Source of the DNA: a bacterium
Lineage (GTDB): Bacteria > Desulfobacterota > Deferrisomatia > Deferrisomatales > Deferrisomataceae
Direction of reading: 5' to 3'
Assembly: GCA_027021615.1 (NCBI GenBank)
Contig: JALUTY010000059.1
Span: 1-37,681 of the forward strand
Length of the DNA: 37,681 nucleotides
Shown: in pieces, positions 9,259 to 33,495 of the stretch
Position numbering within the stretch: the stretch's first letter is position 1
Layout: the number at the start of each line of letters is the position of its first letter
Notes under the pieces: model-generated
What the model was told of the DNA's origin: nothing
The model's input: only the letters and a program-made list of their open reading frames with translations
Database searches by the model: none
Made by a program: the position numbers and the translations under genes

Positions 9259-9648
9259 CTACCGGTCCCTGCACTCCGCCCGGTCGTCGGAAATGAAGGT
9301 GAAGGCTTCTTTCCCGAACCCCGCGGGGATCGGAGACGGTCTGACGGGCAGGTCGACCTCGACCGCCCATCGGGTGATGGTCCAGTGGCCGCCACGCTTC
9401 TCCAGGCTGGCGTTGCAAGTGCCGCTGCCGAACGGCCGGGAAGGACCGTTGGCCGGCGCCGCCGGGACGGGCAGGTAGGTCCTCACCTCAGCGGCGGTGG
9501 CCGTCTGATCCGCCACGTGGAGGTTGCCCATAACGTTGCGCTTCACGAAGAGCTTTCCGCCGCCCTTCTCCTTGAAGCGGAGATCGGCGAACGCCCGGAA
9601 CGCCTCCTCCCCCTCGGCCTTGGCGTGGCCGAAGCACCGCCCCGTTGG
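9259..9648 (-). pseudogene. truncated SnoaL/NTF2-like paralogue
   Basis: About 130 codons align without a frameshift to residues 108-232 of the intact SnoaL-like protein encoded at 13635-14333. Shared segments include CFG, EAFRAF against DAFRAF, MGNLHVADQTAT against MGNVHVAEQTAT, AEVRTY, a NASLEKR/NASMEKR pair, AVEVD, and the end DDRAEC against DDRPEC. The N-terminal half, including signal peptide and most of the cone-shaped fold, is missing. Homology stops about 14 bp before a heptamer repeat (9662-9682), which probably marks the break. The open frame continues through the repeat to ATG 9738, but that N-terminus is not homologous and has no ribosome-binding site. Confidence 0.85.
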
Positions 9649-10239: not shown

Positions 10240-11298
10240 TTACTCCAGATGTTTGGCCAGGAACTCTCCCAGCTCTTGGTACACCTGACGGGACTCCGGG
10301 GATCCCTTGGCAAAGACGTAGTCGGCGTGGGACAGGCCCTCGTACACGTTCAGCTCGGCCGTCACACCCGCCGACCGCATCTTCCGGTGCGTCCGCACCG
10401 TGTCGCTCAGCAGGAGGTCCCGGGTCCCGGTCACCAGGTAGGTCGGAGGGAAGCCCTGAAAGTCCCCGTACACGGGGGAGAGCAGGGGATCCCTCAGGTC
10501 CCGCCCGCCGGCGTACAGCCTGGCCGCCGCGGCCAGCGGCCCGTCGTAGGACACGAGGACGTGGTCGATCCCCTCGTTGGTGAACAGGCTGTCCCCGGTC
10601 TTGGTGAGGTCGGACCAGGGCGTGCCCGCGAACAGGGCGCCCGGCAGGGGCACGCCCGAGGCCTTGAGCTTGTGGGCCACCGCCAGGGCCAGGCCACCCC
10701 CGGCCGAGGTGCCCCCCATGCCGATCGCCCCCGGTGGCCGTTCCCGGAGCAGGTGCCGGTACACCTTGACCACGTCGTCCACCGCGGCCGGGAACGGGTG
10801 ATCGGGGGGCATGCGGTAGTCCACCGACACCACGGGGATCCGGGCCCGGGCCGCGATCAGCACCCCTTCGTAGGCCCCTGCGGCCCCGCCGTTGAACACG
10901 TAGGCCCCGCCGTGGAGGTGCACGAACAGGTGCTGCCGGTGCTCGGGGGCCCCCTCGGCCGGGACGAGATACCGGACCGGCACCCCTGCCACGATTGCGG
11001 TCTCGACGGACACCGAGAGGCTCCGGGCCAGGGCCGCCGTGGCCCGCGCCCCGGCCTCGGCCCGGCGCCCGGCCGCCTGCTTCCACTCCTCCGGCGTCCG
11101 GGGGACGTTCCGGTGGACCTTGGAGACATCCGGGGGCGCGACCGCGGCCAGCATCTGCCGCAGCTCGGGGCTCGCCGCAGCAGGCACGGGCACCTCCCGG
11201 CGCGACACGGGCCACGCCCCCGGGGGGGCCGCGCTGGCCGCCCCCGCGGCCAAGAGCAGCACGGCCGCCAGCAGACACGGCCGACGGATCTCTCCCAT
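10240..11298 (-). CDS. secreted alpha/beta hydrolase (HSL-type esterase)
   Basis: A 352-residue protein with a Sec signal peptide (residues 1-23, ending ASAA). Hormone-sensitive-lipase family motifs: oxyanion HGGA (129-132), nucleophile GTSAGG with S198, D294 in GTRDLLLSD, and H324 in GLSHADY. It should be a periplasmic carboxylesterase or lactonase of unknown substrate. An alternating purine stretch, GGGGAAAGGG, just upstream of ATG 11298 serves as ribosome-binding site. It is probably the last gene of the minus-strand unit read from the sigma-54 promoter at 14399-14414, lying between the broken amidohydrolase and the broken SnoaL-like gene. Confidence 0.9.
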   Translation of the reverse strand: MGEIRRPCLLAAVLLLAAGAASAAPPGAWPVSRREVPVPAAASPELRQMLAAVAPPDVSKVHRNVPRTPEEWKQAAGRRAEAGARATAALARSLSVSVETAIVAGVPVRYLVPAEGAPEHRQHLFVHLHGGAYVFNGGAAGAYEGVLIAARARIPVVSVDYRMPPDHPFPAAVDDVVKVYRHLLRERPPGAIGMGGTSAGGGLALAVAHKLKASGVPLPGALFAGTPWSDLTKTGDSLFTNEGIDHVLVSYDGPLAAAARLYAGGRDLRDPLLSPVYGDFQGFPPTYLVTGTRDLLLSDTVRTHRKMRSAGVTAELNVYEGLSHADYVFAKGSPESRQVYQELGEFLAKHLE

Positions 11299-11341: not shown

Positions 11342-11857
11342 CTACGACAGCCCGAGCAGGCGACTCGCGTTCCGGTACAGGTATTTCTCCATCACCGTGT
11401 CGCTCAAGGGCAGGGCCAGGGGCTGCGCCAGGGTGGTGTCGGAGTTCCCGAAGAAGGGGTAGGCGGAGCCGTACACGAACTGATCCCGCAGGAACTCGAT
11501 GCTTTGCTGGTAAAGCTGTCCCCCGGGCCAGAAGGTGTAGACATCGGTGCTGAGGATGATGCTCGGCCACTTCAGGGCCAGCGCCAGCGCCTCGATTCCA
11601 GCCGCGTCGATCTCGCGCCACCAAGCCTCCATGGCCCCGGGCATTCCGAACCGCCTCACGGTCTCCGGCACCTTCCCATGGGTGGCCGGGTTCGTCAGGG
11701 TGTTCGGTCGGTTGGCCAGGTACGCCACCCGCAGCTTGTACATTCCCTCGAACGAGGAGATCGGCGGGCGGCACCGAAAGCCGATGACCTTGAACCGGCC
11801 GTCCCCGCCAGCACCGCCGCCAGTCCGGCCCGCCGCCCGGCGGGGGCTAGCCGCCAC
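11342..11857 (-). pseudogene. amidohydrolase paralogue with internal deletion
   Basis: A 171-codon frame (GTG at 11857). Its first part aligns with residues about 43-108 of the intact amidohydrolase at 12517-13545 (shared FRCRPPI, then REIDAAGI against QEMDEAGV). It then jumps directly to residues about 264-342 (WPSIILSTDVYTFWPGG against HPNLYISPDIYCFFPGG, and the end NASRLLGL against NAARLLGL). About 155 residues, most of the TIM barrel including the HGG motif, are gone in frame. The twin-arginine leader is also not preserved. It cannot fold as an intact barrel. The GSAYPF motif is retained and shows the same Asp-to-Ala change as the intact copy. Confidence 0.85.
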
Positions 11858-11958
11858 GAGGCCGGCGGAGCCTCGCTAGGACTGGGGCTTTGAAAAACTG
11901 CCTCCGCTCCTGTCGTAGATCCTGGTCTGCTGCCATGCGCCACCTTCCATGTAACTTC

Positions 11959-12189: not shown

Positions 12190-12483
12190 TCAAGTTCGTC
12201 GAACCTTGCCAAGCAACCTCAACACAAGACCCGCCGTGAGTATCCCCACGCCGCTCTGGAACAGCAAAGGCGTGTAGGGGGTGGCACCGGCCAGGAAGGC
12301 GATGCTCTCGTTGGCCAGGCGGCACTGCTCGGTGGTCCGGTACAGGCACACGAACACGTCCGAGTACGTGGCGTACTCCATCTGCGCCACGGCCGCCCCG
12401 TAGAACAGGTACCACCACAAAAGCCCCGTCGCCGCCATCAGCAGACCGAGGGCCAGAACCACGGCGCTCAGCATTCGTTTCAC
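12190..12483 (-). CDS. small two-helix membrane protein, unknown
   Basis: A 97-residue protein. A hydrophobic segment covers residues 5-29, and a second about 68-90 (TPLLFQSGVGILTAGLVLRL), with a roughly 40-residue loop holding two cysteines (VCLYRTTEQC) that could form a disulfide. A basic KVRRT tail suggests both ends are cytoplasmic. Start is GTG 12483, with GGAAGGGAG 9-10 bases upstream; ATG 12474 is an alternative. It lies 33 bp after the intact amidohydrolase gene and is probably co-transcribed. I do not recognise the family; the context suggests a partner in a periplasmic or inner-membrane process. Confidence 0.7.
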   Translation of the reverse strand: MKRMLSAVVLALGLLMAATGLLWWYLFYGAAVAQMEYATYSDVFVCLYRTTEQCRLANESIAFLAGATPYTPLLFQSGVGILTAGLVLRLLGKVRRT

Positions 12484-12516: not shown

Positions 12517-13545
12517 TCACAGCCCCAACAGACGCGCGGCGTTGCCCCCCAGGTACTTCGCCATGACATCCTCGGGGAGGGGGAACTGGAGCACGAGCTC
12601 CACGGACTCCTTCAACGGGGCGAACGGGTACGCCGTGCCGAACACGAACTGGTCCGGCATCAGGGGGATGGATTCCACGTACAGCCGCCCGCCCGGGAAG
12701 AAGCAGTAGATGTCCGGGGAGATATACAGGTTGGGGTGTTTCGAGACCAGCGCCAGGGCGTCCAGCACCCTCGGGTACCCACCATGGGCCAAGATCACCT
12801 TCATCTCCGGGAACCGTTGAAGGACCCGGTCGAGGGGGGGCCAGTCGTTGGCGCCGATGTCAAACCCCGCGTAGATGCCGCTCTGAAGCATCAAAACCGC
12901 GTCCAAGGCCGTGACCGCCTCGTAAATCGGGAACAGCCGCTTGTCGTCCAGCTTGATGGGGCTGCCATCCGGCAGCGTCGTGTACCCGACCTCCAGCACC
13001 ACCCCTGGCAGGCCAAGGTCCTTGACCGCCCGCTCGATCTCGTCCGCCGCCCGCTTGGGGTCGGCCACATCGATGCCGTGCAGACCGATCGCCCGGCCGC
13101 CGAACTTCTTGGACAGATCGAGCAGCAACTCGTCTCCCACGTTGATCGACTCGATACCGGAAAGGTTTCGGACCGCCTCGGGCAGGCGTTCGAGCTTGCG
13201 CCCGGGGACGACGATCCGGTCCACGCCGGCCTCGTCCATCTCCTGGCGCAACAGGCGCAACCCCTTCTCCGTACCCACCTCATACATGGACGGGCTCGTG
13301 GCCTGGGCCGGGATCACGTTGAACTTGTTCTTCCACTTCAGGCGCCCCAGCTTCATGTCGAACAGCAGTTTCTGCTGGGCGATGGGTGGACGGCACCGGA
13401 AATCGATGATCTCGAACCTTCTGGCGAACCGGTTCTCCCGAGCGGTCTCTGTCGCCGCCTGCGAGGGGCGGCCCGCAGCCGCCAGTCCGGCCCCAGCAGC
13501 GGCCAGGGCCGCGGCCTTGAAAAAATCGCGGCGTTCCTCCTGCAT
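12517..13545 (-). CDS. Tat-exported amidohydrolase-like protein lacking canonical metal ligands
   Basis: A 342-residue protein of the Amidohydrolase_2 (PF04909) type. The N-terminal twin-arginine leader is ERRDFFKA with a hydrophobic stretch to about residue 24. Near the barrel start, where the family usually has the metal-binding HxH (as in DxHxH), it reads D48-FRCRPP. The usual GTDYPF/GSDYPF aspartate is A305 in GTAYPF. HGG at 254-256 is retained. Zinc hydrolase chemistry therefore looks lost or replaced, though related proteins with FRxRPP exist to my recollection. I chose ATG 13545 (GGAGGG upstream) over the longer frame. It follows the SnoaL-like gene by 89 bp and shares its sigma-54 promoter. 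Confidence 0.85.
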   Translation of the reverse strand: MQEERRDFFKAAALAAAGAGLAAAGRPSQAATETARENRFARRFEIIDFRCRPPIAQQKLLFDMKLGRLKWKNKFNVIPAQATSPSMYEVGTEKGLRLLRQEMDEAGVDRIVVPGRKLERLPEAVRNLSGIESINVGDELLLDLSKKFGGRAIGLHGIDVADPKRAADEIERAVKDLGLPGVVLEVGYTTLPDGSPIKLDDKRLFPIYEAVTALDAVLMLQSGIYAGFDIGANDWPPLDRVLQRFPEMKVILAHGGYPRVLDALALVSKHPNLYISPDIYCFFPGGRLYVESIPLMPDQFVFGTAYPFAPLKESVELVLQFPLPEDVMAKYLGGNAARLLGL

Positions 13546-13634: not shown

Positions 13635-14333
13635 TCACTCGCACTCGGGCCGGTCGTCGTACACGAGCTCAAACACCTCCGGGTTGAGCCCCTTGGGGGC
13701 GGGGGACCGTTTCACCGGCGAGTCCACCTCGACCGCGAATCGGGTGATGATCCACCGGCCGTCGCGCTTTTCCATCGATGCGTTGTACGTGCCGGTGGTG
13801 ATCGGCTTCATGGGGGCGTTGGGCGGAGCCGCAGAGATCAGCATGTAGGTGCGCACCTCGGCCGTGGTGGCAGTCTGCTCGGCCACGTGAACGTTGCCCA
13901 TCGTGTGGCGCCGCACCGTCACGTTCTTTTCGCTGCCCGGACCACGGTAGCGCAGGTTGAAAAATGCTCGGAACGCGTCCTTCCCTTTGGCCCGGATGTA
14001 ACCGAAGCACGGGACCGTGGCCTCGAACACCACGTCGTCCGAAAACAGCTCGAAGTACTCGTCGTACCGGCCCTCGTCGAGCAGGAACGAGTAGGCGGTG
14101 ATCAGGTTCACGATCGCTTGGCGGTCCGCGATGAACTGCAGGTCGGTGTTCACCTTGCCGGAGTAATCCGCCTCCATCATCTTGAACTTTTTGGGGCCGG
14201 GCAGGCGCTTTTGGAACGGGGTCGGCTCGGCCCACCTTTGCCCGGCTACAGCGCTACCCGACAGCAGCAATCCCGCCGAGGCGACCGCGGCGAGCACCGC
14301 GACAAAGCTCTTGATTCGGATCGGGGGTCGCAT
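13635..14333 (-). CDS. exported SnoaL/NTF2-like protein
   Basis: A 232-residue protein with a Sec signal peptide (residues 1-30, cleaving near SAVA-GQ) and a SnoaL_4/NTF2-like domain at about 64-210 (IADRQAIVNLITAYSFLLDEGRYDEYF...FSDDVVFE). Members of this fold are isomerases, dehydratases, hydrolases or binding proteins; the substrate is unknown. Start ATG 14333 has AGGAGG 6-7 bases upstream. It is the first gene downstream of a near-consensus sigma-54 promoter. A truncated paralogue lies at 9259-9648 and a distant relative at 16119-16649. Co-location with the amidohydrolase, intact beside intact and broken beside broken, suggests the two act together in the periplasm. Confidence 0.85.
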   Translation of the reverse strand: MRPPIRIKSFVAVLAAVASAGLLLSGSAVAGQRWAEPTPFQKRLPGPKKFKMMEADYSGKVNTDLQFIADRQAIVNLITAYSFLLDEGRYDEYFELFSDDVVFEATVPCFGYIRAKGKDAFRAFFNLRYRGPGSEKNVTVRRHTMGNVHVAEQTATTAEVRTYMLISAAPPNAPMKPITTGTYNASMEKRDGRWIITRFAVEVDSPVKRSPAPKGLNPEVFELVYDDRPECE

Positions 14334-14555: not shown

Positions 14556-16088
14556 ATGAAGAGCACGGAGGAGCACCCGCTTGAGGAGTTCACCCGGCAG
14601 GTGGTCACCAGCCGGACCCCACGCGGCACCCTCAACCGGATCTACCGATTCTTCAAAAAACGGATGCCGGTAGACCTTCTTCCGCTCTCGATCTTTGACG
14701 CCCAGCATGGGACGCTCCACTACAAGGCATTCGTCACGGACGACGGTCTGGTCCAGGCAGACGAGAAGATTAAACTTTCCTCGCAGGCCCGGGAGGCAGC
14801 GCGCCGGTACCTCGCCGCGAAAGTCACCCTCATCCCCGACACGAGCCGCAACCCTCTGTCCCTCGACGTGATCGGTCACATGGCCCTCCCCGCCCGGGCC
14901 TCCACCACTTTCACTCTGGTGCCGCTGGACGACCATCGGTACGGGGCACTGGGGCTGATTGCGTGGGGCGAGTTCAGCCAGACCGAGGCCCACCGCCAGA
15001 TGGTTGAAAGCCTCTACGTCCCCCTGTCCGGGACGATCAGCCAGATCCTGGCGCACCTCGAGATCTCCAACCAGCGCGAGCGCCTCGCCCTTGAAAACAA
15101 GGAGATCCGGAAACGCCTCGCCTACCGCATCATCGGCGCCGACTCCGGCCTCCGCGACGTCATGGAGCAGGTCGACCGCATCGCCTCCCTCAACATCCCC
15201 GTGCTGCTCACCGGCGAGACCGGCGTCGGCAAGGAAGTGGTCGCCAACGCCATCCACAACCGCTCCAACCGCGCCGACGGGCCCCTCGTCTCCATCAACT
15301 GCGGCGCCATCCCCGAAAGCCTCGTCGAGAGCGAGCTCTTCGGGTATGAAAAAGGCGCCTTCACCGGCGCCCACACCCAACACCGCGGCTATTTCGAGCA
15401 GGCCGACGAGGGGACCCTTTTTATGGACGAGATCGGAGAGCTATCCCTGGGCACCCAGGTGAAGCTGCTGCGATTCCTCCAAACCTTGGAACTGCGCCGC
15501 ATCGGCGGCAACCGCACCATCTCCGTCGACGTACGCATCGTCGCCGCCACCAACCGCGACATCCAAGCTCTGGTCCGCGAAAATCGCTTCCGCGAGGACC
15601 TGTGGTACCGCCTGAACGTGTTCCCCATCCACATCCCCCCCCTGCGCGAACGCAAACAGGACATCCCCGAGCTTGCCGACTACTTCGCCCACCGTCAGGC
15701 GGTCGAGATGAACCTGCCTTATGTCCCCTCTTTCGCTCCCGAGGCCATGGACCAACTCCGCGCTTACGACTGGCCCGGAAACATCCGAGAGCTCAAAAAC
15801 GTGATCGAGCGCGCCCTGATCACTTGTCAGGGTGAGCCTTTACGCTTCCCCCATCTGTCCCCCCGCTTGCGCAACGGGGGCTCGCCCGCCCGCTGCTCCT
15901 GCTCCACGCCGGAAGGGTTCCCCACCCTCGATCAAATGATCGCGCGTCATATCCGGGAGGGGTTGAGGCTGGCCCGGGGCCGTATAGAGGGCCGTGGCGG
16001 TGCAGCCGAACTCCTCGGGATTCATCCGTCCACTCTCCGGGCCAAGATGCGCAAGCTCGGCATTCGGATCGAGCGAGTCGCCCGCTGA
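14556..16088 (+). CDS. sigma-54-dependent transcriptional activator (GAF-AAA+-Fis)
   Basis: A 510-residue NtrC-type enhancer-binding protein. The N-terminal GAF-like sensor covers about 5-170, followed by a short coiled linker (171-190). The AAA+ domain is 191-420, with Walker A GETGVGKE (220-227), the sigma-54 contact loop GAFTGA (267-272) and Walker B FMDEIGEL. A C-terminal Fis-type HTH follows (about 470-505, ILGIHPSTLRAKMRKLGI). There is no receiver domain, so it should sense a ligand directly, as XylR/NorR-type activators do. GAGGGA at 14545-14550 favours ATG 14556 over ATG 14526. It is divergent from the sigma-54 promoter at 14399-14414, its likely target. Codon use in the AAA+ part differs from that of the sensor. 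Confidence 0.93.
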   Translation: MKSTEEHPLEEFTRQVVTSRTPRGTLNRIYRFFKKRMPVDLLPLSIFDAQHGTLHYKAFVTDDGLVQADEKIKLSSQAREAARRYLAAKVTLIPDTSRNPLSLDVIGHMALPARASTTFTLVPLDDHRYGALGLIAWGEFSQTEAHRQMVESLYVPLSGTISQILAHLEISNQRERLALENKEIRKRLAYRIIGADSGLRDVMEQVDRIASLNIPVLLTGETGVGKEVVANAIHNRSNRADGPLVSINCGAIPESLVESELFGYEKGAFTGAHTQHRGYFEQADEGTLFMDEIGELSLGTQVKLLRFLQTLELRRIGGNRTISVDVRIVAATNRDIQALVRENRFREDLWYRLNVFPIHIPPLRERKQDIPELADYFAHRQAVEMNLPYVPSFAPEAMDQLRAYDWPGNIRELKNVIERALITCQGEPLRFPHLSPRLRNGGSPARCSCSTPEGFPTLDQMIARHIREGLRLARGRIEGRGGAAELLGIHPSTLRAKMRKLGIRIERVAR

Positions 16089-16698: not shown

Positions 16699-18795
16699 TC
16701 AACCAGCGGCGGCGCCCAGCCGGCCCGCCGCCTCCAGCTCGTCCGCCACGTGCCCGAGGCCCAGGGCCTCCAGGGTCGGCCGGGTGGGCCACCCGGTCTC
16801 CGGGTCCCAGCCCTCGAGCCGGTAGTAGCGGGTCTTCCACCGCTCCACCCCGTCCTCGGACAGGCGGCGCCCCATGACACTGCGGTACGCCCACGCGCCG
16901 TCCTCGTCCCGGGTGGGCCAGTGGTAGAACGGGAACCTGAACCTGTCGAAGGGGGTCTCGTACACGTACCGGGCGAACCGGGCCAGGTCCCGGTGCCGGC
17001 CCTGGAGGGTCCAGATCGCGTTCTGCAGGTTGAGGATCTTCCGGCCCCGCTCCAGCCCCTGCTCGAACGTGATCCCCTCGCCGGCCACCGCGTTCCAGAA
17101 CACCTGCTCCCCCGCGTCGGGGGACGCGGTCGCGCCCCGCAGGTCCGGGGTCCGGCTGCTGTACAGGTTGGGCCACCGGAAGTCGCACAGCAGGGCCGAG
17201 TTCTTCCAGAACCGGTTGTAGTGCACCATCCACCGGACGAGCCGGGCCACCGCCTCGGAGTACATGTTGGCGTCGCCGTAGTCCAGCCCGGCGGGGTCCC
17301 CGGTGGTCTTCTCGGCTACCCGGCGGGCCAGGGTGGCCGCGTCGATCCGCGGCTCCCGCCCGTAGGCCAGGGCCATGTTCAGGTCCCAGAAGATGAAGTT
17401 GACGCCGTGGTCGTTGATGTCCCGCTCGGTGACGATCGTCGCGTACCCCCACTCCAGCTCGGCCCTGGAGTCGTACCCGTGCTCGGGCACCCCCCAGTAC
17501 GGGAACGGCAGCAAGCCCTTCTCCCAGTCCTCCCGCCGGCCCCATCCGAGCGCTGCCGGCACCCAGCCGTCTGCCAGGTCCGCGCCGATGTCCCGGCGGG
17601 TGGCCAGGGCCTCGATCAGCTCCCGGGCGAACGGGAGGGACCCCAGGTCCTCCCACGGCAGGTCGGACCGGATCGGCCCGTCCCGTCCCATCAGCCCCCG
17701 CCGGTGCAGGGACTCCAGCCAGTGGAGCGCCCGGGACAGGCCGTAGGAGTTCACCCCGTACCGGTTGAGCCAGTCGCCGGCCCGGAGCACGATCTCCGCG
17801 ACCTTGTCCTTATCCCCTCCGGCGTGGCGGGCGGCGAACGGCACGTACCACGCGGACGTGTTGCAGGTGACCTCGTTGCCGTACCCCACGGCGTACCGGG
17901 CCTTGCACCCGTTGATGCAACCGTGGCACGCACTCGTCCGGCGCTCGTCGGTGGGGTGCTTCACGAACACCACCGGCTCGGGCGCGCGGTCGAGGTTGCC
18001 CCAGGCGTGGAGGTCCGGGTCCTCGGCGTCGGCCGCGTACCGCTCCTTGGCGACGAACCGGGCCTGCAGCAGGGCCGCCGGGTCGGCCACCGGCACGGCC
18101 CCCGTTCCCACCACGCTGACCGCCTTGAGGTTCTTGGCCCCCCACACCGCGCCGAAGCCCCCCTGGCCGGCCGCGTTGCCCGCCCCGTGCACCAGGCACG
18201 CGTCGGCCACCCGGTTCTCCCCGGCCGGGCCGATCGCCAGCACCGCCGGCGGTTGGGTGGTCAGGCCCACCCGCTGCCCCTCCGGCACGGCCCGCCAGCC
18301 GTCGGTCGCCTCCTCTTCCGCGGCCACCCGCTCCTGGATCCGTTGCTGGGTGTCCCACGCGTCCCGCCCCCAGAGCCACGCCGCTTCGCGAAGAGCCACC
18401 CGGTCGTTCCGGATGTCCAGCCACACCGGAGAGGCGGCCCGGCCGGTGAGCACGATCCCGTCCCAGCCGGCCTGCTTGAGCATGGCCGCGAAGTGCCCGC
18501 CGAAGTTCGAGCGGGTGAACCAGGAGATCGGGTAGAACCCCACCCCGACCCCGCTCACCTCGCACCGCCCCCCGGCCGAGGGCACGTTGGTCCCGGAGAA
18601 CGGCGAGGCCATCACGCAGCACACGTTCTCCGGCCGGCGACCGTCCCGGATCGTCTTGTCCCGGCATAGGTCCCAGAACAGGGCCGTGCCCATGCCGTAG
18701 CCGCCCCCGTACTCCCGGTACCTCATGGTGGGGATGCGTTCGAAGCGTCGGGCGCTCAGATCCACGTGCAGGATCTTTCCGGCAAAGCCGCTCAT
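16699..18795 (-). CDS. aldehyde:ferredoxin oxidoreductase-like W/Mo-pterin enzyme (AOR 1)
   Basis: A 698-residue AOR-family protein: N-terminal domain (residues 1-210, SGFAGKILHVDL, AGGRCEVSG) and C-terminal domains. The [4Fe-4S] ligands are C290-x2-C293-x3-C297, matching the spacing of the archaeal enzyme, with the distal C537. Around C537 the usual DxxGLC pterin motif is NSALLC, and the first motif reads RYGVNS, so this is a divergent subfamily. It should hold a bis-pterin tungsten (or molybdenum) centre; substrate unknown (aldehyde/carboxylate couple or a BamB-like reduction). It has no signal peptide. It is about three quarters identical to AOR 2 over the first 100 residues by eye, and the 117-residue gene lies between them. 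Confidence 0.93.
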   Translation of the reverse strand: MSGFAGKILHVDLSARRFERIPTMRYREYGGGYGMGTALFWDLCRDKTIRDGRRPENVCCVMASPFSGTNVPSAGGRCEVSGVGVGFYPISWFTRSNFGGHFAAMLKQAGWDGIVLTGRAASPVWLDIRNDRVALREAAWLWGRDAWDTQQRIQERVAAEEEATDGWRAVPEGQRVGLTTQPPAVLAIGPAGENRVADACLVHGAGNAAGQGGFGAVWGAKNLKAVSVVGTGAVPVADPAALLQARFVAKERYAADAEDPDLHAWGNLDRAPEPVVFVKHPTDERRTSACHGCINGCKARYAVGYGNEVTCNTSAWYVPFAARHAGGDKDKVAEIVLRAGDWLNRYGVNSYGLSRALHWLESLHRRGLMGRDGPIRSDLPWEDLGSLPFARELIEALATRRDIGADLADGWVPAALGWGRREDWEKGLLPFPYWGVPEHGYDSRAELEWGYATIVTERDINDHGVNFIFWDLNMALAYGREPRIDAATLARRVAEKTTGDPAGLDYGDANMYSEAVARLVRWMVHYNRFWKNSALLCDFRWPNLYSSRTPDLRGATASPDAGEQVFWNAVAGEGITFEQGLERGRKILNLQNAIWTLQGRHRDLARFARYVYETPFDRFRFPFYHWPTRDEDGAWAYRSVMGRRLSEDGVERWKTRYYRLEGWDPETGWPTRPTLEALGLGHVADELEAAGRLGAAAG

Positions 18796-19175: not shown

Positions 19176-21290
19176 TCAAGCCTCCTCCCGGCCGAGTCGG
19201 CCGGCACGCTCGAGCTCGTCCGCCACGTGGGCCAGGCCGAGGGACTCCAGCGTGGAGCGCGTCGGCCAGCCCGTCCGCGGGTCCCAGCCCTCGAGCCGGT
19301 AGAAGTGCGTCTTCCAGCGCTCCACCCCCTCCTCGGAAAGCCGGCGGTTCAACACGCTGCGGTAGGCCCACGCTCCGTTCTCGTCGCGGGTGGGCCAGTT
19401 GTAGAAGGGGAAGTACACCTCGAACCGGTCGTAGGGCTTCTCGTAGATGAACCGGGCGAACCTCACCATGTCCCGGTGCCGACCTTGGAGGGTCCAGATC
19501 GCCTGGTTCAGGTTGAGGATCGCGCGGCCCCGCTCGAGCCCCTCCTCGAACGTGATGTCCTCGCCGGTCACCGCGTTCCAGAACACCTGCTCGCCCGCGT
19601 CGGGGGAGGCGGTGGCCCCCTCCAGGGTGTCCACCTGGGTGTCGTACAAGCTGGGCCAGCGCAGGTCGCAGAAAAGGGCCGAGTTCTTCCAGAACCGGTT
19701 GTAGTGCAGGATCCACCGGACCAGCCGGGCCACCGACTCCGAGTACATGTTGGCATCCCCGTAGTCCAGGCCCGAAGGGTCCCCCTCCAGGTAGTGCGCC
19801 ATCTTCTCCCCTACGAGCCGGGCCATGGTGGCGGCGTCGATCCGCGGCGTGCGGCCGTAGGCCAGCGCGATGTTGACATCCCAGAAGATGATGTTCACGG
19901 CGTGGTCGTTGATGTCCCGCTCGGTGACGAGGGTGGCGTACCCCCACTCCAGCTCGGCCCGCGGGTCATAGGCGTGTTCCCCGTACCCCCAGTACGGGAA
20001 CGGCAGGCGCCCCTGGTGCCAGTCGTCCTCCCGGCCCCAGCGGATCGCGGCCTGCACCCACCCGTCCGCCAGATCGGCGCCGATGTCCTGGCGGGTGGCC
20101 AGCGCATGGATGAACCGGCGGGCGAATTCCAGGGTGCCCAGCTCCTCCCACGGCAGCTCGGAGTGGATCCGACGACCAGGTCCCAGGACGCCCCGGTGGT
20201 ACAGATACTCCAACCACTCCAGCCCCCGCTGCAGGGTGTACGAGTTGGCCCCGTACTGCTGGATGACGTCCGCCGATCGGAGCACGATCTCCGAGACCAT
20301 CATCTTGTCGCCTTTGGCCACCTTCGCAGCGAACGGCGCGTACCAGTTCGAGGTCTGGCACAGGCTCTCGTTGCCGTACCCCACCGAGTAGCGAGCCTTG
20401 CAGCCGCTGACGCACCCGAAGCACGCGCTCGTCCGGCGCTCGTCGGTCGGCGGCGCCACGAACGGCCGGGAGTTGGGCACCCGGTTCAGCGTCCCCCAGG
20501 TCCCCAGGTCCGGGTCGTCCGGGTCGGCGGCGTACTTTTCCTTGGCGGTGAACCGGGCCCGCAGCAGGGCCGCCGGGTCGGCCACGTCCACGGTGCCGGT
20601 GCCCACCACGCTGATCGCCTTGAGGTTCTTCGAGCCCCAGACCGCGCCGAAACCGCCCTGACCCGCACCGTTTCCCGCACCGTGCACCAGGCAGCCGTGG
20701 GCGGTCTGGTTCTCCCCTGCCGGGCCGATGGCCAGCACCGAAGGGGGCTGGGTCGTCAGGGCGGCCCGCTCGGCCTCCGGTACGGCCCACCATCCGTCGA
20801 ACGCGTCGGCCCCCGAGAGCACCCGCTCCCGGATCCTCTGCTGCGTGGTCCAGGTGTCCTTCCCCCACAGGTCCCGCGCGTCCCGGAGCGCCACGTGATC
20901 GTTGCGAACGTCGAGCCACACGGGCGAGTCCGCCCGACCGGTCAACACGATCCCGTCCCAGCCCGCCTGCTTCAACATCGACGAGAAGTGCCCTCCGAAG
21001 TTCGTCCGGGTGAACCAACCGACCGGGTACGGCCCCACGCCCGCACCGGTCACCTCGCACCGCCCCCCCGCCGACGGCACGTTGGTGCCGCAGAGGGGTG
21101 ACGCCATGATCGAGCACACGTTCTCGGGCCGGCGCCCGTCCTGGATCGTCTTGTCCGGACACAGGTCCCAGAACAGGGCTGCGCCCATGCCGTGGCCGCC
21201 GCCGAACCGGCGGTAGCGCTCGGTGTCGATCCGCTCGAGCGTCCGGGACGTCAGGTCCACCCGCAGGATCTTTCCCGCAAAGCCGCTCAT
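19176..21290 (-). CDS. aldehyde:ferredoxin oxidoreductase-like W/Mo-pterin enzyme (AOR 2)
   Basis: A 704-residue paralogue of AOR 1, with collinear numbering for the first 300 residues. Cluster ligands are C290-x2-C293-x3-C297, with a distal cysteine in KNSALFCDLRWP, again lacking the usual Asp and Gly of DxxGLC. The N-terminal pterin-binding half is strongly conserved between the two (GTNVPSAGGRCEV, VHGAGN-AGQGGFGAVWG). It has no export signal. It begins 16 bp after the cytochrome b-FeS gene, CGGAG being the ribosome-binding site. The order membrane partner, AOR 2, small protein, AOR 1 suggests one membrane-bound complex or two enzymes sharing one partner. Confidence 0.93.
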   Translation of the reverse strand: MSGFAGKILRVDLTSRTLERIDTERYRRFGGGHGMGAALFWDLCPDKTIQDGRRPENVCSIMASPLCGTNVPSAGGRCEVTGAGVGPYPVGWFTRTNFGGHFSSMLKQAGWDGIVLTGRADSPVWLDVRNDHVALRDARDLWGKDTWTTQQRIRERVLSGADAFDGWWAVPEAERAALTTQPPSVLAIGPAGENQTAHGCLVHGAGNGAGQGGFGAVWGSKNLKAISVVGTGTVDVADPAALLRARFTAKEKYAADPDDPDLGTWGTLNRVPNSRPFVAPPTDERRTSACFGCVSGCKARYSVGYGNESLCQTSNWYAPFAAKVAKGDKMMVSEIVLRSADVIQQYGANSYTLQRGLEWLEYLYHRGVLGPGRRIHSELPWEELGTLEFARRFIHALATRQDIGADLADGWVQAAIRWGREDDWHQGRLPFPYWGYGEHAYDPRAELEWGYATLVTERDINDHAVNIIFWDVNIALAYGRTPRIDAATMARLVGEKMAHYLEGDPSGLDYGDANMYSESVARLVRWILHYNRFWKNSALFCDLRWPSLYDTQVDTLEGATASPDAGEQVFWNAVTGEDITFEEGLERGRAILNLNQAIWTLQGRHRDMVRFARFIYEKPYDRFEVYFPFYNWPTRDENGAWAYRSVLNRRLSEEGVERWKTHFYRLEGWDPRTGWPTRSTLESLGLAHVADELERAGRLGREEA

Positions 21291-21306: not shown

Positions 21307-22857
21307 TCAGGGTTTCGTGGTCATCCCCATCCGGGCCCAGCCCTCGCCCCGGAGGTTCACCCGATACGAGTCCAGCCGGTCCTGGTCGGGCATCTCGCGC
21401 ACGAACGCGATCGCGTTCACCGGACACGCCCGCACGCACGCCTGGACCCCGCCCGGGCCCCCCTCCGCCTCCATGAACGGGGTGTCCGCACACAGGTCGC
21501 ACTTCTGGGCCTTCCGGGCGGCCGTGTCCCACTGGATCCGCTTGGGGCTGTACGGGCACGCCTCCAGACACTGCATGCACCCGATGCAGCGGTCCGGATC
21601 CACCCGCCGGACCCCGCCGTGGGCCGGGTCGGCCCGGTTGGCGGACACGGGGCACGCCTTGACGCACGCGGCGTCCTGGCACTGGCGGCACACGAACACG
21701 GCCACGTCGTCCGGCCACCGGGCGAACGGGTCCTGCCGGATCTGGATCCGCGCCAGGGACAGGGACGCCCCGCCCGTGTGGGCCACGGCGCACGACGCCA
21801 TGCACGTGTTGCAGCCCATGCACTTCTTGGGGTCCACCACCAGGAACCCCTCGGCGTTGGGGATCGCGATCCGGCCCCCCGGCCAGAGCAGCATCCCCCC
21901 GGCCGACAGGGCCACGCCCGTGGCCCCGAGGGCCTGGACGAACCGCCGGCGCGAGGGGTCTGCCGGATCTGCATGCGGCCCCCGGGTGCCCTTCCGTGCG
22001 GCGAGTTCCCGGAACCACGCGCCGTGGTGCGCCCGCGCGTAGGCCGCGGGCAGGTATCCGGTGAGCATGGACCGGAGCAGCGGCCAGGACCACGGCACCA
22101 GGGCACCGAGCACCACGTGCATCACAACGAGCACCAGCATCAAAACGGTGCCCGCGTCGTGCAGCCAGTGCATGAGGGAGATCAGGGGAGCGGGGAGGTC
22201 CGCGATGCGGGCAAAGACCTTGAAGAACCCGGAGACCACGAGAACACCGGTGACCGCCACGATCGGCACGAACGCCAGACGCTCCGAGGCCTGGTACTTT
22301 CCGGCTTCCACCGTCCTGCGGGTCAAGCGCAGCAGGTGGGCGTAGTGGACCGCCGCCCCCCGAAGGTCCTCGCCGATCCGCCCGGGCAGGTGCTCCCGCA
22401 GCCGCGCCGGCGAGCGCACCGTGTTGCCGACCCAGAAGAAGACCCCGAACAGGAAGAACAAAGCGGCCACGAAGTGCAGGTTCAGCAGGAACGCGGTCTC
22501 GGACGCGGTCACCACCTGCCGGGGCAGGCGGAACAGCCCCAGGGCGAACCCGGTGTACAGGAGTGCCACGCACGACAGCCCCACGGTCCAATGGGCCAGC
22601 ATGGCGCCGGCGTCGTGCCGGAGCACCCGGTCCCCCTCCAGCCTCGGGTCGACCCGTTTGCAGAACGCGCTGGCCCAGAGCCCGACGAACGAGGCGAGCC
22701 CCAGGCCCCACGGGGCCGCGTCGAAGAACAGCCGGGTGGTCCGGCTCCCCAGGTCCCCCACGGGAACGTACACTGCGGCCCGCACGGCCGCCCAGAGCCC
22801 CAGAGCCGCCAGGACGGCCCCGACCCCCCATCCCAGCACCTTGCCTCGCCTGGACAT
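21307..22857 (-). CDS. cytochrome b / four-[4Fe-4S] ferredoxin fusion, AOR membrane partner
   Basis: A 516-residue fusion. The N-terminal half (1-260) resembles the formate dehydrogenase gamma/cytochrome b561 type, with about five to six membrane segments and candidate haem ligands H81, H89, H128, H230, H233 and H247. The C-terminal half (335-490) is an FdhB/DmsB-like ferredoxin with four cluster motifs (CMGCNTCMASC, CRQCQDAACVKAC, CIGCMQCLEAC, CDLC...CVRAC). Between them lies a twin-arginine-like motif, S302-RRRF-V, followed by a hydrophobic stretch (308-325). It should pass electrons between the AORs and the quinone pool. Domain sidedness is unclear: the internal Tat-like signal argues for a periplasmic ferredoxin domain, yet the AORs have no signal. 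AAGGGG precedes ATG 22857. Confidence 0.9.
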   Translation of the reverse strand: MSRRGKVLGWGVGAVLAALGLWAAVRAAVYVPVGDLGSRTTRLFFDAAPWGLGLASFVGLWASAFCKRVDPRLEGDRVLRHDAGAMLAHWTVGLSCVALLYTGFALGLFRLPRQVVTASETAFLLNLHFVAALFFLFGVFFWVGNTVRSPARLREHLPGRIGEDLRGAAVHYAHLLRLTRRTVEAGKYQASERLAFVPIVAVTGVLVVSGFFKVFARIADLPAPLISLMHWLHDAGTVLMLVLVVMHVVLGALVPWSWPLLRSMLTGYLPAAYARAHHGAWFRELAARKGTRGPHADPADPSRRRFVQALGATGVALSAGGMLLWPGGRIAIPNAEGFLVVDPKKCMGCNTCMASCAVAHTGGASLSLARIQIRQDPFARWPDDVAVFVCRQCQDAACVKACPVSANRADPAHGGVRRVDPDRCIGCMQCLEACPYSPKRIQWDTAARKAQKCDLCADTPFMEAEGGPGGVQACVRACPVNAIAFVREMPDQDRLDSYRVNLRGEGWARMGMTTKP

Positions 22858-22976: not shown

Positions 22977-23975
22977 CTACCTGCCGGTGAAACGAACCGT
23001 CTCTCCTCTTTGCAGCTTTTCAAGGATGTCCCGATCCGCCTGGCCGCGCTCGAGCGCGGCCAGGTAGTACTCGAAGGCCCTTACCGGATCCCTCAGGTAT
23101 GCCGTACCGAAAAACGCGGCCTTCTCGACCTCGAGCCCCTGCCGAAGAGGGAGGCTCCCCCCATGGCGGACGGCTTGCTTGATCCCTGCCACCGAGCGGG
23201 GCGGCCGCTTCGCCATGCGACGGGCAAGAGCGAGGGCCTCGTCCATCAGGGCCTCCGGCGCCACAACTCGGTGGACGAGGCCAAGACTCAAGGCCTCTCC
23301 GGGCCTCAACATGGATCCTTCCAGCATCAGCTCAATGGCCCGGCCGTGTCCTACCAACCGGGTCAGCCGCTGGGTCCCTCCAGCGCCAGGGATGATCGCC
23401 ACCGTGATCTCCGGCAGACCGAACCGATAGTCCCCCTCGGCCATCAAGCGAAAATCGCACGCCAGCGCCAGTTCGGTCGCCCCTCCCAGAGCCTCGCCGC
23501 TGATCGCGGCGACCACCACCTTGTCCATCCGCTCCAGCCGACAGAACACCCGGTGGATGCATTCGAGGTCCACCACCCCGAACAGGGGGGTCTTGCGAAG
23601 CGCGGTCTCCACCGGTTCCCCGAGGCCGAGGCGGTCCAGGGTGCGTAGCAGCCGCCCCAGCAACAAGCATCCTTGCGTGTTGAGCCCTCTGAGAAAACGG
23701 GGTGTGAGCTGGAGCGGTCGGAACATCGCGAGAATGTCCCGGATCTCGTAGTGGGTGACGAACACGTGCTCCACCGCGCTGGTGACCACTATCGCCCGGA
23801 TCGAAGGATCACCAGCCCAAACCCGGGTGACGCGGTCCAGCTCCCGGACCATCCCCGCTGTCATGAAGTTGTAAGGCGGGTTGTGAAATGAGATGACTCC
23901 CACATCGCCTTCCCTTTGGACCTTCAAAAACTCCAGATCCCCACCTCCGCTCTCCTCCCACCCCCGACGCCTCAT
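22977..23975 (-). CDS. enoyl-CoA hydratase/isomerase family protein with insertion
   Basis: A 332-residue crotonase, longer than the usual 255-270. Both catalytic glutamates of enoyl-CoA hydratase are present: E168 in GEALGGATELALACDF and E189 in FGLPEITVAIIPGAGGTQRL. The first oxyanion-hole region, normally GADIKE, is VFVTHYEIRD, and an extra segment of about 60 residues (80-140) follows it. Hydration or isomerisation of a CoA thioester is likely; the insertion may shape the pocket for a bulky acyl group. The start overlaps the RND transporter stop (ATGA), so the genes are translationally coupled. The gap of 119 bp to the AOR partner gene includes a weak GGCGAG/CTCGCC dyad. Confidence 0.9.
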   Translation of the reverse strand: MRRRGWEESGGGDLEFLKVQREGDVGVISFHNPPYNFMTAGMVRELDRVTRVWAGDPSIRAIVVTSAVEHVFVTHYEIRDILAMFRPLQLTPRFLRGLNTQGCLLLGRLLRTLDRLGLGEPVETALRKTPLFGVVDLECIHRVFCRLERMDKVVVAAISGEALGGATELALACDFRLMAEGDYRFGLPEITVAIIPGAGGTQRLTRLVGHGRAIELMLEGSMLRPGEALSLGLVHRVVAPEALMDEALALARRMAKRPPRSVAGIKQAVRHGGSLPLRQGLEVEKAAFFGTAYLRDPVRAFEYYLAALERGQADRDILEKLQRGETVRFTGR

Positions 23976-26374
23976 GATCCCGCCTCTGCGGCTTTCTGTG
24001 GGGCAATGCCTGCCCCTGCGGCCCCTGTGTCCGATCGGTTCGGGAGGAGAAAGTGGGCGATGGCGGGCAGCAGGCAGATGGCGCCGATCATGTTCCACAG
24101 GAACATGAACGTGAGCAGGATCCCCATGTCGGCCTGGAACTTGATCGGGGAGAAGGCCCACGTCGCGACCCCCAGGGCCAGGGTGATCCCGGTGAAGGCC
24201 ACCGCCTTGCCCGTGGTCTTCAGCGTCTGGTAGTACGCCGAGACCATGTCCATGCCCTGATCCAGGTACCCGGTGAGGCGGTTGTAGATGTACACACCGT
24301 AGTCGACCCCGATCCCGACCCCCACGGAGATCACCGGCAACGTGGCCACCTTCACCCCGATCCCCAGCCAGGTCATCAGCACCTCGCAGAGCAGGGAGGT
24401 CAGGGCCAGGGGCACGATGATGCAGACCGTGGCCCGGACGCTCCGGAACGTCAGGAACACCAGGAGGATGACCACCCCGTACACCCACAGGAGCATGGTC
24501 GTCTGGGCCTTCTCGATCTCGATGTTCGTGGCCGCCTCGATTCCCGCCGGGCCGGCGGCCATCAGGAATTGGCCCCCTTCGGTCTTGTTTTCCCGTGTGA
24601 ACGTGTCCACCGCCGTCACCACCTCACTCAGGGTCTTCGCCTTGTGGTCGTTCAGGTAGACGAAGATCGGGCTCAACGTCCCGTCCTGGCTGGCTACCCC
24701 CGGGGGCAGCTGCATGGCCAAGCTGTCGAGGGTGATCTGGCTCCGGGGCAGGGTCCACCACTTGAAGTTGCCCTCGTTGTAGGCGGCGTTCAGGAGCTTC
24801 ATGTAGTCGACGATCGACTGGGTCGATTGAACCCCGGGCAGCTCCTGGAGCCGGGCCTGGAGGTTGTCCGCGTCGACCAGGATCGGGTACTTGCTGTTCC
24901 CCTCGGGTGGGGTCTCGAGCATGACCACGAAGAGGTCGCTGGTGGTCGAGTAGTTGTCCACGATGAAGGCGTTGTCGAGGTTGTACCGGGAGTCGGGCCG
25001 GAGCTCCGGCGCCCCTCGGTCGAGGTCACCGATCTGCAGGCCCCTTCGGTACTGGTAGCCCCAACCGGCGGCCACGGCGACGATCGTCAGGACGACCACG
25101 GCCGGTCTGGGGCTGGCCAGCCTCGAGAGCATCCCCCACAGGGGATGGCGGTGCCCCTCCTCCTCTTCGCGCAGCAGCGCGATGCTGCGACGACTGACGC
25201 CGAAGTAGGACATCAGCAGCGGGAGGCAGATCAGCATGCCCAGGATGAGGACCGGGAAGCGGACCAGCGCACCCACGGCCATGTCCCGCAGCACGCCGAT
25301 GTTGATGACGTAGAGCGTCGCGAAGCCCACCCCGTCGGTCACGAGGGCGCACAGGGCGGAGAGGTACAGCAGCCGAAAGGCGTAGCGGGCCGCGGTCAGC
25401 CTGCCCCGCCCCGCCATGGCCTGGTGCTTGATGCCGCTGATCATCTGGACCCCGTGACTGATGCCCACCGCGAAGACCAGGAACGGGACCAGCATCGAGT
25501 AGGGGTCGAGCCCGTAGCCGAAAAGCTTCAGGATCCCCGCTTGCCACACCACGGCCAGCAGCGCGCAGATCACGGGCATCACGGTCGAGCGGAGGCACCG
25601 GGTGTACACATAGAGCAGGACGGTGGCCAGGACGACGGTGACCAGGAAGAACCCCCCCATGGAGGCGGCGCCGTCCATGAGGTCGCCCACCAGCTTGGCG
25701 AAGCCGATGATGTGGATCTTGATCTTCTCGTTCTCGAACTTCTTCCGAACCAGCTCCTCCAGCTTGTGGGAGAAGTCCCGGTAGTCGAGCTTCTCACCGG
25801 TCTCGGGATTCAGCTCCTGGAGGGGAACGACCACCATCGACGACCGGAAGTTGTTGGCCACGAGCCTGCCGATCTCCCCCGAGCGCATGACGTTGCGTTT
25901 GAGCAGGGCGATGCTCTCCGGGGAGCCGTCGTAGGTGTCGGGGATCACCGGGCCGCCGTCGAACCCCTCCTCGGTGACCTCCTTCCAGCGTACGATGGGC
26001 ATCCACAAGGACTTGACGCCGGAGCGCTCCACCCCCGGGATGAAGAAGACCTCGTCCGTGATCTCCTGGAGGGTCTGCAGGTACTCCGGGTCGAAGATGT
26101 CCCCCTGTGTGTTCTCCACCGCGATCCAGATGACGTTGCCGAGCCCCTTCAGCTGGTCCTTGTGCTTGAGGTAGTTCTGGATGAACGGGTGGTAGGCCGG
26201 AATCATCTTCTGGAAGCTCGCCTCGAGCTTCATATTGAAGGCCTGGTAACCCAGGAACACCGACGCCACCGCCAGCACGGTCAGCAGGGGGGCCCGGAAC
26301 TTGAAAATGAGCCTCTCGACGAGCGGAGCCCGGGTGCCTTCCACTCGGCCTGGATCCTGATTTCCATGCGCCAT
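23972..26374 (-). CDS. RND/MMPL-family transporter
   Basis: An 800-residue protein with the classical duplicated RND plan: one membrane helix (about 28-46), a large periplasmic loop, five or six helices (about 230-395), then a helix near 425, a second loop and a final helix bundle (about 630-780). The motif GVGIGVDYGVYIYNRL is typical of the MMPL/HAE3 group. It probably moves a hydrophobic substrate across or within the envelope using the proton gradient. It overlaps the YCF48-like gene by one base (TGATG) and the crotonase by four. This pairing with YCF48, DUF1329 and DUF1302 genes is a recurrent set in hydrophobic-compound catabolic loci. Confidence 0.92.
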   Translation of the reverse strand: MAHGNQDPGRVEGTRAPLVERLIFKFRAPLLTVLAVASVFLGYQAFNMKLEASFQKMIPAYHPFIQNYLKHKDQLKGLGNVIWIAVENTQGDIFDPEYLQTLQEITDEVFFIPGVERSGVKSLWMPIVRWKEVTEEGFDGGPVIPDTYDGSPESIALLKRNVMRSGEIGRLVANNFRSSMVVVPLQELNPETGEKLDYRDFSHKLEELVRKKFENEKIKIHIIGFAKLVGDLMDGAASMGGFFLVTVVLATVLLYVYTRCLRSTVMPVICALLAVVWQAGILKLFGYGLDPYSMLVPFLVFAVGISHGVQMISGIKHQAMAGRGRLTAARYAFRLLYLSALCALVTDGVGFATLYVINIGVLRDMAVGALVRFPVLILGMLICLPLLMSYFGVSRRSIALLREEEEGHRHPLWGMLSRLASPRPAVVVLTIVAVAAGWGYQYRRGLQIGDLDRGAPELRPDSRYNLDNAFIVDNYSTTSDLFVVMLETPPEGNSKYPILVDADNLQARLQELPGVQSTQSIVDYMKLLNAAYNEGNFKWWTLPRSQITLDSLAMQLPPGVASQDGTLSPIFVYLNDHKAKTLSEVVTAVDTFTRENKTEGGQFLMAAGPAGIEAATNIEIEKAQTTMLLWVYGVVILLVFLTFRSVRATVCIIVPLALTSLLCEVLMTWLGIGVKVATLPVISVGVGIGVDYGVYIYNRLTGYLDQGMDMVSAYYQTLKTTGKAVAFTGITLALGVATWAFSPIKFQADMGILLTFMFLWNMIGAICLLPAIAHFLLPNRSDTGAAGAGIAPQKAAEAGS

Positions 26375-27549
26375 CAGTTCATCTCTTCGTTTCGGGTCGA
26401 GCCCGGCTCCAAGCGGTACACGCCTTTGAGGCCCACCAGCACGAGACCGCCGTCAGGGGCCTCGGCAACGGCCATGCAGGCGGGGAAGCCGGTCTTGACG
26501 GGTTTGAGCCCGGGCCGGAGGGTGCTGCCGAGGTAGATCTCGCCCGCCATGCCCACCAAGACGAACCGCTGGCCGGAGAGCACGGCACCCCCGGTCAGGG
26601 CGGCCCCCTGACCGAGCCTCTGGTGCCGCCATGTGGCACCGTCGTCGTACGAGAGAACGAGATTGCCCCGCAGACCGAAACCGGCGACCATCGTTCCGGC
26701 AGGATCGGCCAGGGCGCTGAAGAACGAGCCGTGGTAGGGCGTCTCCACCGCCTCCCAATGCCGTCCGCCGTCGGCCGACCGGTGGGCCCCCCCCGCCTCG
26801 CCGAAGAGGAACGCCCGGTCGCGGGTCCTGGCCAGGCCGTAGAAGTGGTACCCCATCGGGTTGCTGATCCGGTCCAGGAGGGGCGTCCAGCTCTCGCCGC
26901 CGTCGGCGGTGCCCATGATGATTCCGAAGGCCCCCACGAGCAGCCCCTCCCGGGGGCTCGAAAAGGCCACGTCGAGCAGGGGCTGGATGGGGCCCTCCCG
27001 TCGGGTCTCCTCGAACCCCTTGAGGTTGACCTCGGCGTCCTCCAGAAGAGGCTGCAGACCCGCCTTCTCCTCCTCCGGTGCGGTGTCCATCCGTCGGCGG
27101 ATCCCCTCGACCAGGGCCTGCATCGCCCGAACCATCTCTTCGTTGATCTGCCTGCCGTCGAGGACCTTCGTCCAGGTGACCCCCCGGTCGCGGGTGCGGA
27201 GGACCACGGACTCGTGCCCCACCGCCCATCCGGTCTGGGGCTCTGGGAAGCACACCGCCGTCAGGGTGGTCCGCACGGGGACCGAGGCCTGGGTCCAGGT
27301 CCTGCCGCCGTCGTCGGAGTACACGATCAGGCCCCGCTCTCCCACGGCGACCAGGCGGGAGCCGGCCCGGGTGACGTCCATGAGGGCGGCCCGCGCCGGC
27401 CGGGCGAACCGGAAGGCCGGTTGTCTCAGAAAGTCCCCGGCCAGGGAGGGCCCGGCCGACCCCAGCCAGAACAAGCCGACCATCACGAGAGAACAGGCCC
27501 GACGGGCTCCCCGGGCATCCAAAGCTGAGGCGATCAAGGCTCTCTCCAT
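26374..27549 (-). CDS. YCF48/BNR-repeat beta-propeller protein, exported
   Basis: A 391-residue protein with a signal peptide (hydrophobic core about 19-34, cleaving near SLAG). Repeated BNR-like motifs SDDGGRTW, TRDRGVTW, TADGGESW, SADGGRHW and SYDDGATW indicate a photosynthesis-assembly (YCF48)-type beta-propeller. A helical insertion lies at about 135-185. Such proteins regularly accompany RND transporters of the MMPL type, perhaps as periplasmic accessory subunits. Start ATG 27549 has no Shine-Dalgarno; instead the T-tract of a hairpin ends 6 bases upstream, so translation and transcription may be controlled here. Confidence 0.88.
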   Translation of the reverse strand: MERALIASALDARGARRACSLVMVGLFWLGSAGPSLAGDFLRQPAFRFARPARAALMDVTRAGSRLVAVGERGLIVYSDDGGRTWTQASVPVRTTLTAVCFPEPQTGWAVGHESVVLRTRDRGVTWTKVLDGRQINEEMVRAMQALVEGIRRRMDTAPEEEKAGLQPLLEDAEVNLKGFEETRREGPIQPLLDVAFSSPREGLLVGAFGIIMGTADGGESWTPLLDRISNPMGYHFYGLARTRDRAFLFGEAGGAHRSADGGRHWEAVETPYHGSFFSALADPAGTMVAGFGLRGNLVLSYDDGATWRHQRLGQGAALTGGAVLSGQRFVLVGMAGEIYLGSTLRPGLKPVKTGFPACMAVAEAPDGGLVLVGLKGVYRLEPGSTRNEEMN

Positions 27550-27555
27550 CACTCG

Positions 27556-27582
27556 AAAAAAGGGGCGACCCGCTGGCGCCCC
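27556..27582 (-). terminator. intrinsic terminator or attenuator inside the operon
   Basis: On the minus strand, stem GGGGCG (27582-27577) and CGCCCC (27567-27562) with a 9-nt loop is followed by six T (27561-27556). It lies between the DUF1329 and YCF48 genes, 6 bases before the YCF48 start codon. It should reduce expression of all downstream genes, including the AORs, unless read through. Confidence 0.75.
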
Positions 27583-27641
27583 CCGGAACCGGGCGGCCCC
27601 GGGGGGGCGCAGCGCGCCGGGTTGACCCGCCGAGGCCCGGG

Positions 27642-29012: not shown

Positions 29013-29040
29013 GATGTGAGCTCCTTTCACTGCGGGATGG

Positions 29041-30726: not shown

Positions 30727-30805
30727 CCCTTCCTCCTCTCCACCTGTGGATTGTTGCGCCGCTCCGTTTGCCGGACCCTGGTCCCAGGTTCCAGCTCCCA
30801 CTTGC

Positions 30806-33443: not shown

Positions 33444-33495
33444 CGTGTGCCTCCTTTTTCGGACCTCTCCCGCCTCTGCCACGGAGCCCGGCGGA

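Follow-up and report, generated by a model that had tools for sequence, protein, structure and literature searches.

The window analysed here (the whole stretch of 37,681 nucleotides) carries, at 12517–13545 on the minus strand, a gene for a probably exported enzyme whose family usually depends on a metal, and which, judging from alignments, has lost the residues that hold it. As far as the aligned homologues go, this loss is ancestral to a large clade in which two arginines stand in place of the HxH motif (henceforth the Arg-pair clade), and the pattern of its residues suggests that an alternative active site is conserved here and that the protein is not decaying. The clade is real, conserved and uncharacterised in the literature that we searched; the superfamily itself is known, and a representative structure has been solved but has remained unstudied.

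Replacement of the metal ligands across a clade

The open reading frame starts at an ATG at position 13545, preceded by a GGAGG ribosome site, and encodes 342 amino acids. The Amidohydro_2 profile (PF04909) matched this protein with 110.5 bits (E 1.8e-31; gathering score 26.4) and members of the family, which has a TIM-barrel fold, were among its Foldseek matches, both of which place it in Amidohydro_2; a search of NCBIfam with the same protein matched no model. The register of the ligands was taken from an alignment with two metal-type relatives, L003 from the same genome (motifs IDFHVH...VMVHTG...MVHGG...GSDWP) and L022 from another genome. In this alignment the HxH of strand 1 is replaced in register by R50-C51-R52 (13390–13398, minus strand, as are all residues given here), the metal-binding His of strand 5 by Q221 (12883–12885) and the Asp of strand 8 by A305, which together with Y306 (12628–12633) forms part of GTAYPF. 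Of the five ligands expected in a metal-dependent amidohydrolase only the strand-6 His is present (H254, within HGGYP, 12784–12786); the other four are absent. The sequence-only reading had pointed to FRCRPP and GTAYPF as altered metal motifs, and both changes are there and in register with L003 and L022; its inventory was right for the HxH and the Asp and had overlooked the change of the strand-5 His to Gln as well as the retained H254.

The ligand-less state is common to homologues in Desulfobacterota, Proteobacteria and Campylobacterota, including the protein of PDB entries 3IRS and 3K4W, and the same states occur in homologues encoded on plasmids of Cupriavidus, Methylobacterium, Methylocystis, Azospirillum, Hydrogenophaga and Aliarcobacter. 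A phylogenetic tree recovered the Arg-pair clade with bootstrap values of 77–100. In an alignment of 25 clade sequences, 3IRS among them, R50, R52, H254, D278 and Y280 were invariant (25/25), the last two belonging to the D278-I279-Y280 of SPDIY at the end of strand 7 (12706–12714). Position 185, at the end of strand 4 (E185, 12991–12993), was Glu in 22 sequences and Asp in three, position 221 was Met, Gln or Thr and never His, and position 305 was Ala or Ser and never Asp. Such identical states in all 25 members mean that the replacement is not due to chance. The clade can be summarised by the signature RxRP...H...PDxY...[GA][ST][AS][YF]P, to which the intact protein conforms. No relatives of it were found in the viral contigs searched.

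Active sites of TIM barrels lie at the C-terminal ends of the strands. Conserved polar residues were concentrated at the predicted C-terminal strand ends (7 of 13, against 22 of all 121 polar residues, p 0.002), although the strands come from a weak AlphaFold model (seven sequences, pLDDT 58), so that the test rests on homology. The appearance of a new fixed set of polar residues together with the loss of the ligands argues for a rebuilt active site over decay. More distant relatives display yet other states in the alignment (e.g. RFRPN...SAHP and CVTPP...TAWP), indicating that the canonical site has often been lost in this part of Amidohydro_2. Because the loss is clade-wide and accompanied by a new invariant polar set, a metal-free enzyme, one of the two possibilities raised by the sequence-only reading, appears to be the best-supported interpretation. 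Automatic annotation nevertheless labels the proteins of the clade as amidohydrolases or metal-dependent hydrolases, despite the metal site being gone throughout the branch.

Paralogue groups, the broken copy and the leader

The second copy in the window had been described as a broken paralogue with the motifs FRCRPP and GSAYPF, and this description holds, the latter motif reading GSAYPFF with an extra Phe. The remnant (11342–11936, minus strand), a pseudogene of an exported relative, lacks ~150 codons through an in-frame deletion with GIEA on one side and LALALKW on the other. It reaches past 11857, its previous limit, to about 11936; a frameshifted trace of a Tat leader (QERRQFFKA, near 11912) is found there in a different frame. 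In the tree it falls into group C (bootstrap 100) with the leader-bearing L011, L025 and L012, and the intact gene falls with leaderless Desulfobacterales proteins (group A), a placement that speaks against the intact gene having been duplicated locally in recent times. By this phylogeny the two copies are old paralogues and the loss of the ligands is older than groups A, B and C. The proposal that the change predates the duplication thus stands in that both old groups are ligand-less, and falls in that the copies did not arise from each other recently. Group B, also ligand-less and recognisable by FRLRPP, lies directly behind group A in Desulfobacterales genomes (loci L005, L006, L007, L008, L030 and L031); this paralogue, present in every group-A operon examined, was not found in the genome of the window.

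The N-terminus of the intact protein carries the leader ERRDFFKAAALAAAG, encoded within a Tat-like leader region (13420–13545, minus strand) that begins MQEERRDFFKAAALAAAGAGLAAAGRPSQAA... and comprises ERRDFFK and a hydrophobic stretch. The TAT_signal model matched it weakly (E 0.0058, below the curated cut-off), and it is from this predicted leader that we infer export. Leaders of the ERRxFLK type are borne by the group-C relatives. The Tat-like leader is absent from the cytoplasmic group-A orthologues, whose match to the intact protein begins only at residue 42–45. At the DNA level, the leader of the intact gene aligned to that of the remnant with a score of 49, compared with 27 ± 4.8 for shuffled sequences (0 of 500 reached that score), hence the group-A gene may have acquired its leader from its group-C neighbour. 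The stretch that separates the remnant from the intact gene encodes a 97-residue protein with two hydrophobic segments (12190–12483, minus strand) and no Pfam match.

Gene neighbourhoods

Directly upstream of the intact gene is a SnoaL_4 protein (profile match) with a Sec-type leader (13635–14333, minus strand). A second, degenerate SnoaL copy (9271–9636, minus strand), 56% identical to the former over its C-terminal half, and the amidohydrolase remnant together suggest that a second set of genes, of group C, has decayed. Next to the remnant is an exported alpha/beta hydrolase of the hormone-sensitive lipase type (10240–11298, minus strand), the orthologue of which also adjoins a group-C gene in genome G279, beside a truncated SnoaL. 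These two genomes, the window's with one intact and one broken SnoaL gene and G279 with a truncated one, are the only ones in which SnoaL adjoins a gene of the clade, and an obligate partnership is not supported. The suggestion that the two proteins work together is weak, since the adjacency is seen here and in G279 and group-A orthologues adjoin a CoA ligase, usually with a thiolase, instead.

The closest orthologues of the intact gene, all of group A, are cytoplasmic, 63–67% identical over its length and have the same residues. In four loci (L005, L007, L008 and L031) a CoA ligase and a thiolase precede them, in L006 a thiolase and the end of a ligase, and in L030 a ligase only; the operons continue with a periplasmic solute-binding protein and TRAP-like membrane ORFs (read from the sequence alone). 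The window has orthologues of both enzymes, a PaaK-like CoA ligase (32088–33482, minus strand) 69–74% identical to that beside the group-A genes in Desulfobacterales, to which the next best ligase of its own genome is 38% identical, and an SCP2/BbsB-type thiolase (30806–32101, minus strand) 50–54% identical to that of the group-A operons. The ligase is not adjacent to the intact gene but ~17 kb away. At an identity of at least 60% it was found in 8 of 395 genomes, including all three that carry a group-A gene (3/3); strict co-inheritance does not hold, the association being one-way only, as five genomes carry the ligase at this level without the group-A gene. 

The ligase and thiolase of the window belong to a cluster (23972–33482, minus strand) that also includes DUF1302, DUF1329, BNR and MMPL genes, all of which but the thiolase are shared with genome G170 (locus L129). 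There the DUF1302, DUF1329, BNR and MMPL genes come after this ligase, and before it stands an orthologous sigma-54 activator, 56% identical to the one that lies in the window at 14604–16088 on the plus strand, divergent from the gene cluster of the amidohydrolase; the arrangement mirrors that of the window. In genome G332, ligase and thiolase are found near a nitroreductase orthologue and ORFs that, as read from the sequence, resemble acyl-CoA dehydrogenase, ETF and SDR proteins. This context points to what may be a beta-oxidation-like route for a hydrophobic carboxylate. Group A is cytoplasmic elsewhere and bears a leader here, which makes it unlikely that the substrate is a CoA thioester, and a step before the ligase would fit.

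Elsewhere, clade members adjoin sulfonate genes (ssuD, sfnG, msuE) or Rieske oxygenases. Those with R[AS]RP[AS]F on plasmids of Methylocystis, Azospirillum and Aliarcobacter (L103, L104 and L105) adjoin ssuD, with sfnG/msuE in two of them, and this adjacency in three distant lineages is a recurrent link to sulfonate metabolism. The clade thus recurs in catabolic clusters of several phyla, be they CoA-ligase/thiolase operons, sulfonate clusters or Rieske oxygenase clusters. Such varied neighbours imply that substrates vary across the clade, and the reaction does not follow from the neighbourhood.

Proposed chemistry and known relatives

A Foldseek search gave 3IRS as the top match, followed by 2,6- and 2,3-dihydroxybenzoate decarboxylases, 5-carboxyvanillate decarboxylase, ACMSD and the LigJ hydratase. 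The protein of 3IRS/3K4W is BB4693 of Bordetella bronchiseptica (structural genomics, 2009, no function), which is also the best PDB match by sequence, with full-length homology (E 1e-33). It resembles the intact protein in its FRLRPP, strand-4 Glu, HGNWP, SPDMY and GTAYP, but it is a different paralogue and has no leader in the matched region (aligned from residue 3). No published work on BB4693 or the Arg-pair clade was found in the open-licence literature. In ACMSD-type decarboxylases and their relatives the strand-1 motif, His and Asp bind the metal that these enzymes use. The ACMSD-type decarboxylases (of 2,6-dihydroxybenzoate and 5-carboxyvanillate) and LigJ have the Amidohydro_2 fold and the strand-6 His in common with the intact protein, which, unlike these metal-bound enzymes, is without four of the five ligands. 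3IRS aside, the characterised structures nearest to the target are decarboxylases and a hydratase, so that a C-C lyase, decarboxylase, hydratase or hydrolase acting on a carboxylate is a first guess.

The reading that we favour, and consider about evenly balanced between right and wrong, is that of an exported clade member without the canonical metal, whose arginine pair would act on a periplasmic acid that feeds a CoA ligase/thiolase pathway. At the end of strand 1 the pair would stand in for the charge of the metal, so as to bind an anionic substrate of carboxylate type and polarise it, and acid-base chemistry would come from H254 (strand 6), D278 and Y280 (strand 7), E185 (strand 4) and Y306 (strand 8). 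The likeliest reaction would be that of a C-C lyase/decarboxylase or of a hydrolase/hydratase, as in the nearest characterised relatives. Its setting would be the periplasm, beside the exported esterase and the SnoaL protein, and its substrate a hydrophobic acid or an acid derived from an ester; the product, a carboxylate prepared for CoA activation, would enter the beta-oxidation-type pathway. Extended to the whole clade, the proposal is slightly more tentative: a widespread, unnamed branch may have swapped its metal for an arginine pair plus Glu/His/Asp/Tyr, in cytoplasmic and exported forms alike, for metal-free chemistry on anionic substrates (carboxylates, and perhaps sulfonate-derived ones in the relatives near ssuD/sfnG).

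The main rival, although unlikely, is that the protein is still a metalloenzyme, with a single ion held not by HxH but in a relocated site that H254, D278 and E185 (perhaps also D229) would form. The invariance of H254 and D278 and the presence of Glu or Asp at position 185 in 25/25 sequences would suit such a site, and all three residues are placed at the mouth of the barrel by the predicted secondary structure; yet two invariant arginines in the same pocket are unfavourable for a cation, and with four of the five usual ligands gone only one His is available. Somewhat less probable still is that the protein catalyses nothing and serves in the periplasm for binding or in a chaperone-like role, its barrel pocket holding an anionic ligand, e.g. 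in concert with SnoaL or transport proteins. An export leader combined with ligand loss would agree with this, as would the outer-membrane DUF1302/DUF1329 and MMPL transport genes nearby, but Arg, His, Asp and Tyr are fully invariant in distant and mostly leaderless members of catabolic operons, which is more typical of catalysis. That the gene is simply a lineage-specific amidohydrolase degenerating towards the pseudogene state of its neighbour seems very improbable: copies of both amidohydrolase and SnoaL have indeed decayed alongside, but orthologues that have these residues too share 63–67% identity with the intact gene along its length, and the loss of ligands is clade-wide.

The favoured reading of Arg-pair chemistry has a partial parallel in LigI-type lactonases, metal-independent amidohydrolases of a different branch that keep the strand-8 Asp. 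Catalysis without a metal is likely to be common to the present protein and that metal-independent subset, whereas the clade has Ala/Ser at strand 8 where LigI-type enzymes have Asp. Metal-independent members are a recognised class within the superfamily (PMC12017989).

Another comparison is with ThnN and its homologue BamU, of the naphthalene and benzoyl-CoA clusters, which share with the target the superfamily and a catabolic setting with CoA ligases; ThnN has been proposed as a metal-using ring opener, a candidate not yet tested (PMC12016498). On contig C78 of the window's own genome (L047:8005–8823, minus strand) a metal-type amidohydrolase adjoins BamA (TIGR03200, above cut-off); it is probably BamU, by position and superfamily only, and in the alignment it retains HxH, the strand-5 and strand-6 His and the strand-8 Asp. 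Since this bam-linked protein keeps all ligands, the Arg-pair clade is separate, and an identity with ThnN/BamU is rejected. The genome therefore has a built-in contrast between a metal-type relative in the BamA cluster and the ligand-less protein at 12517–13545. As the clade recurs in catabolic clusters of several phyla, biochemistry on a single member could give many genes a new annotation and reveal how a metalloenzyme scaffold is turned to metal-free chemistry. The window also encodes two tandem genes of the AFOR family (tungsten aldehyde oxidoreductase type; 16699–18795 and 19176–21290, minus strand), followed by a cytochrome b561/ferredoxin fusion (21307–22857); the PDB sequences closest to the pair include aldehyde:ferredoxin oxidoreductases and BamB.
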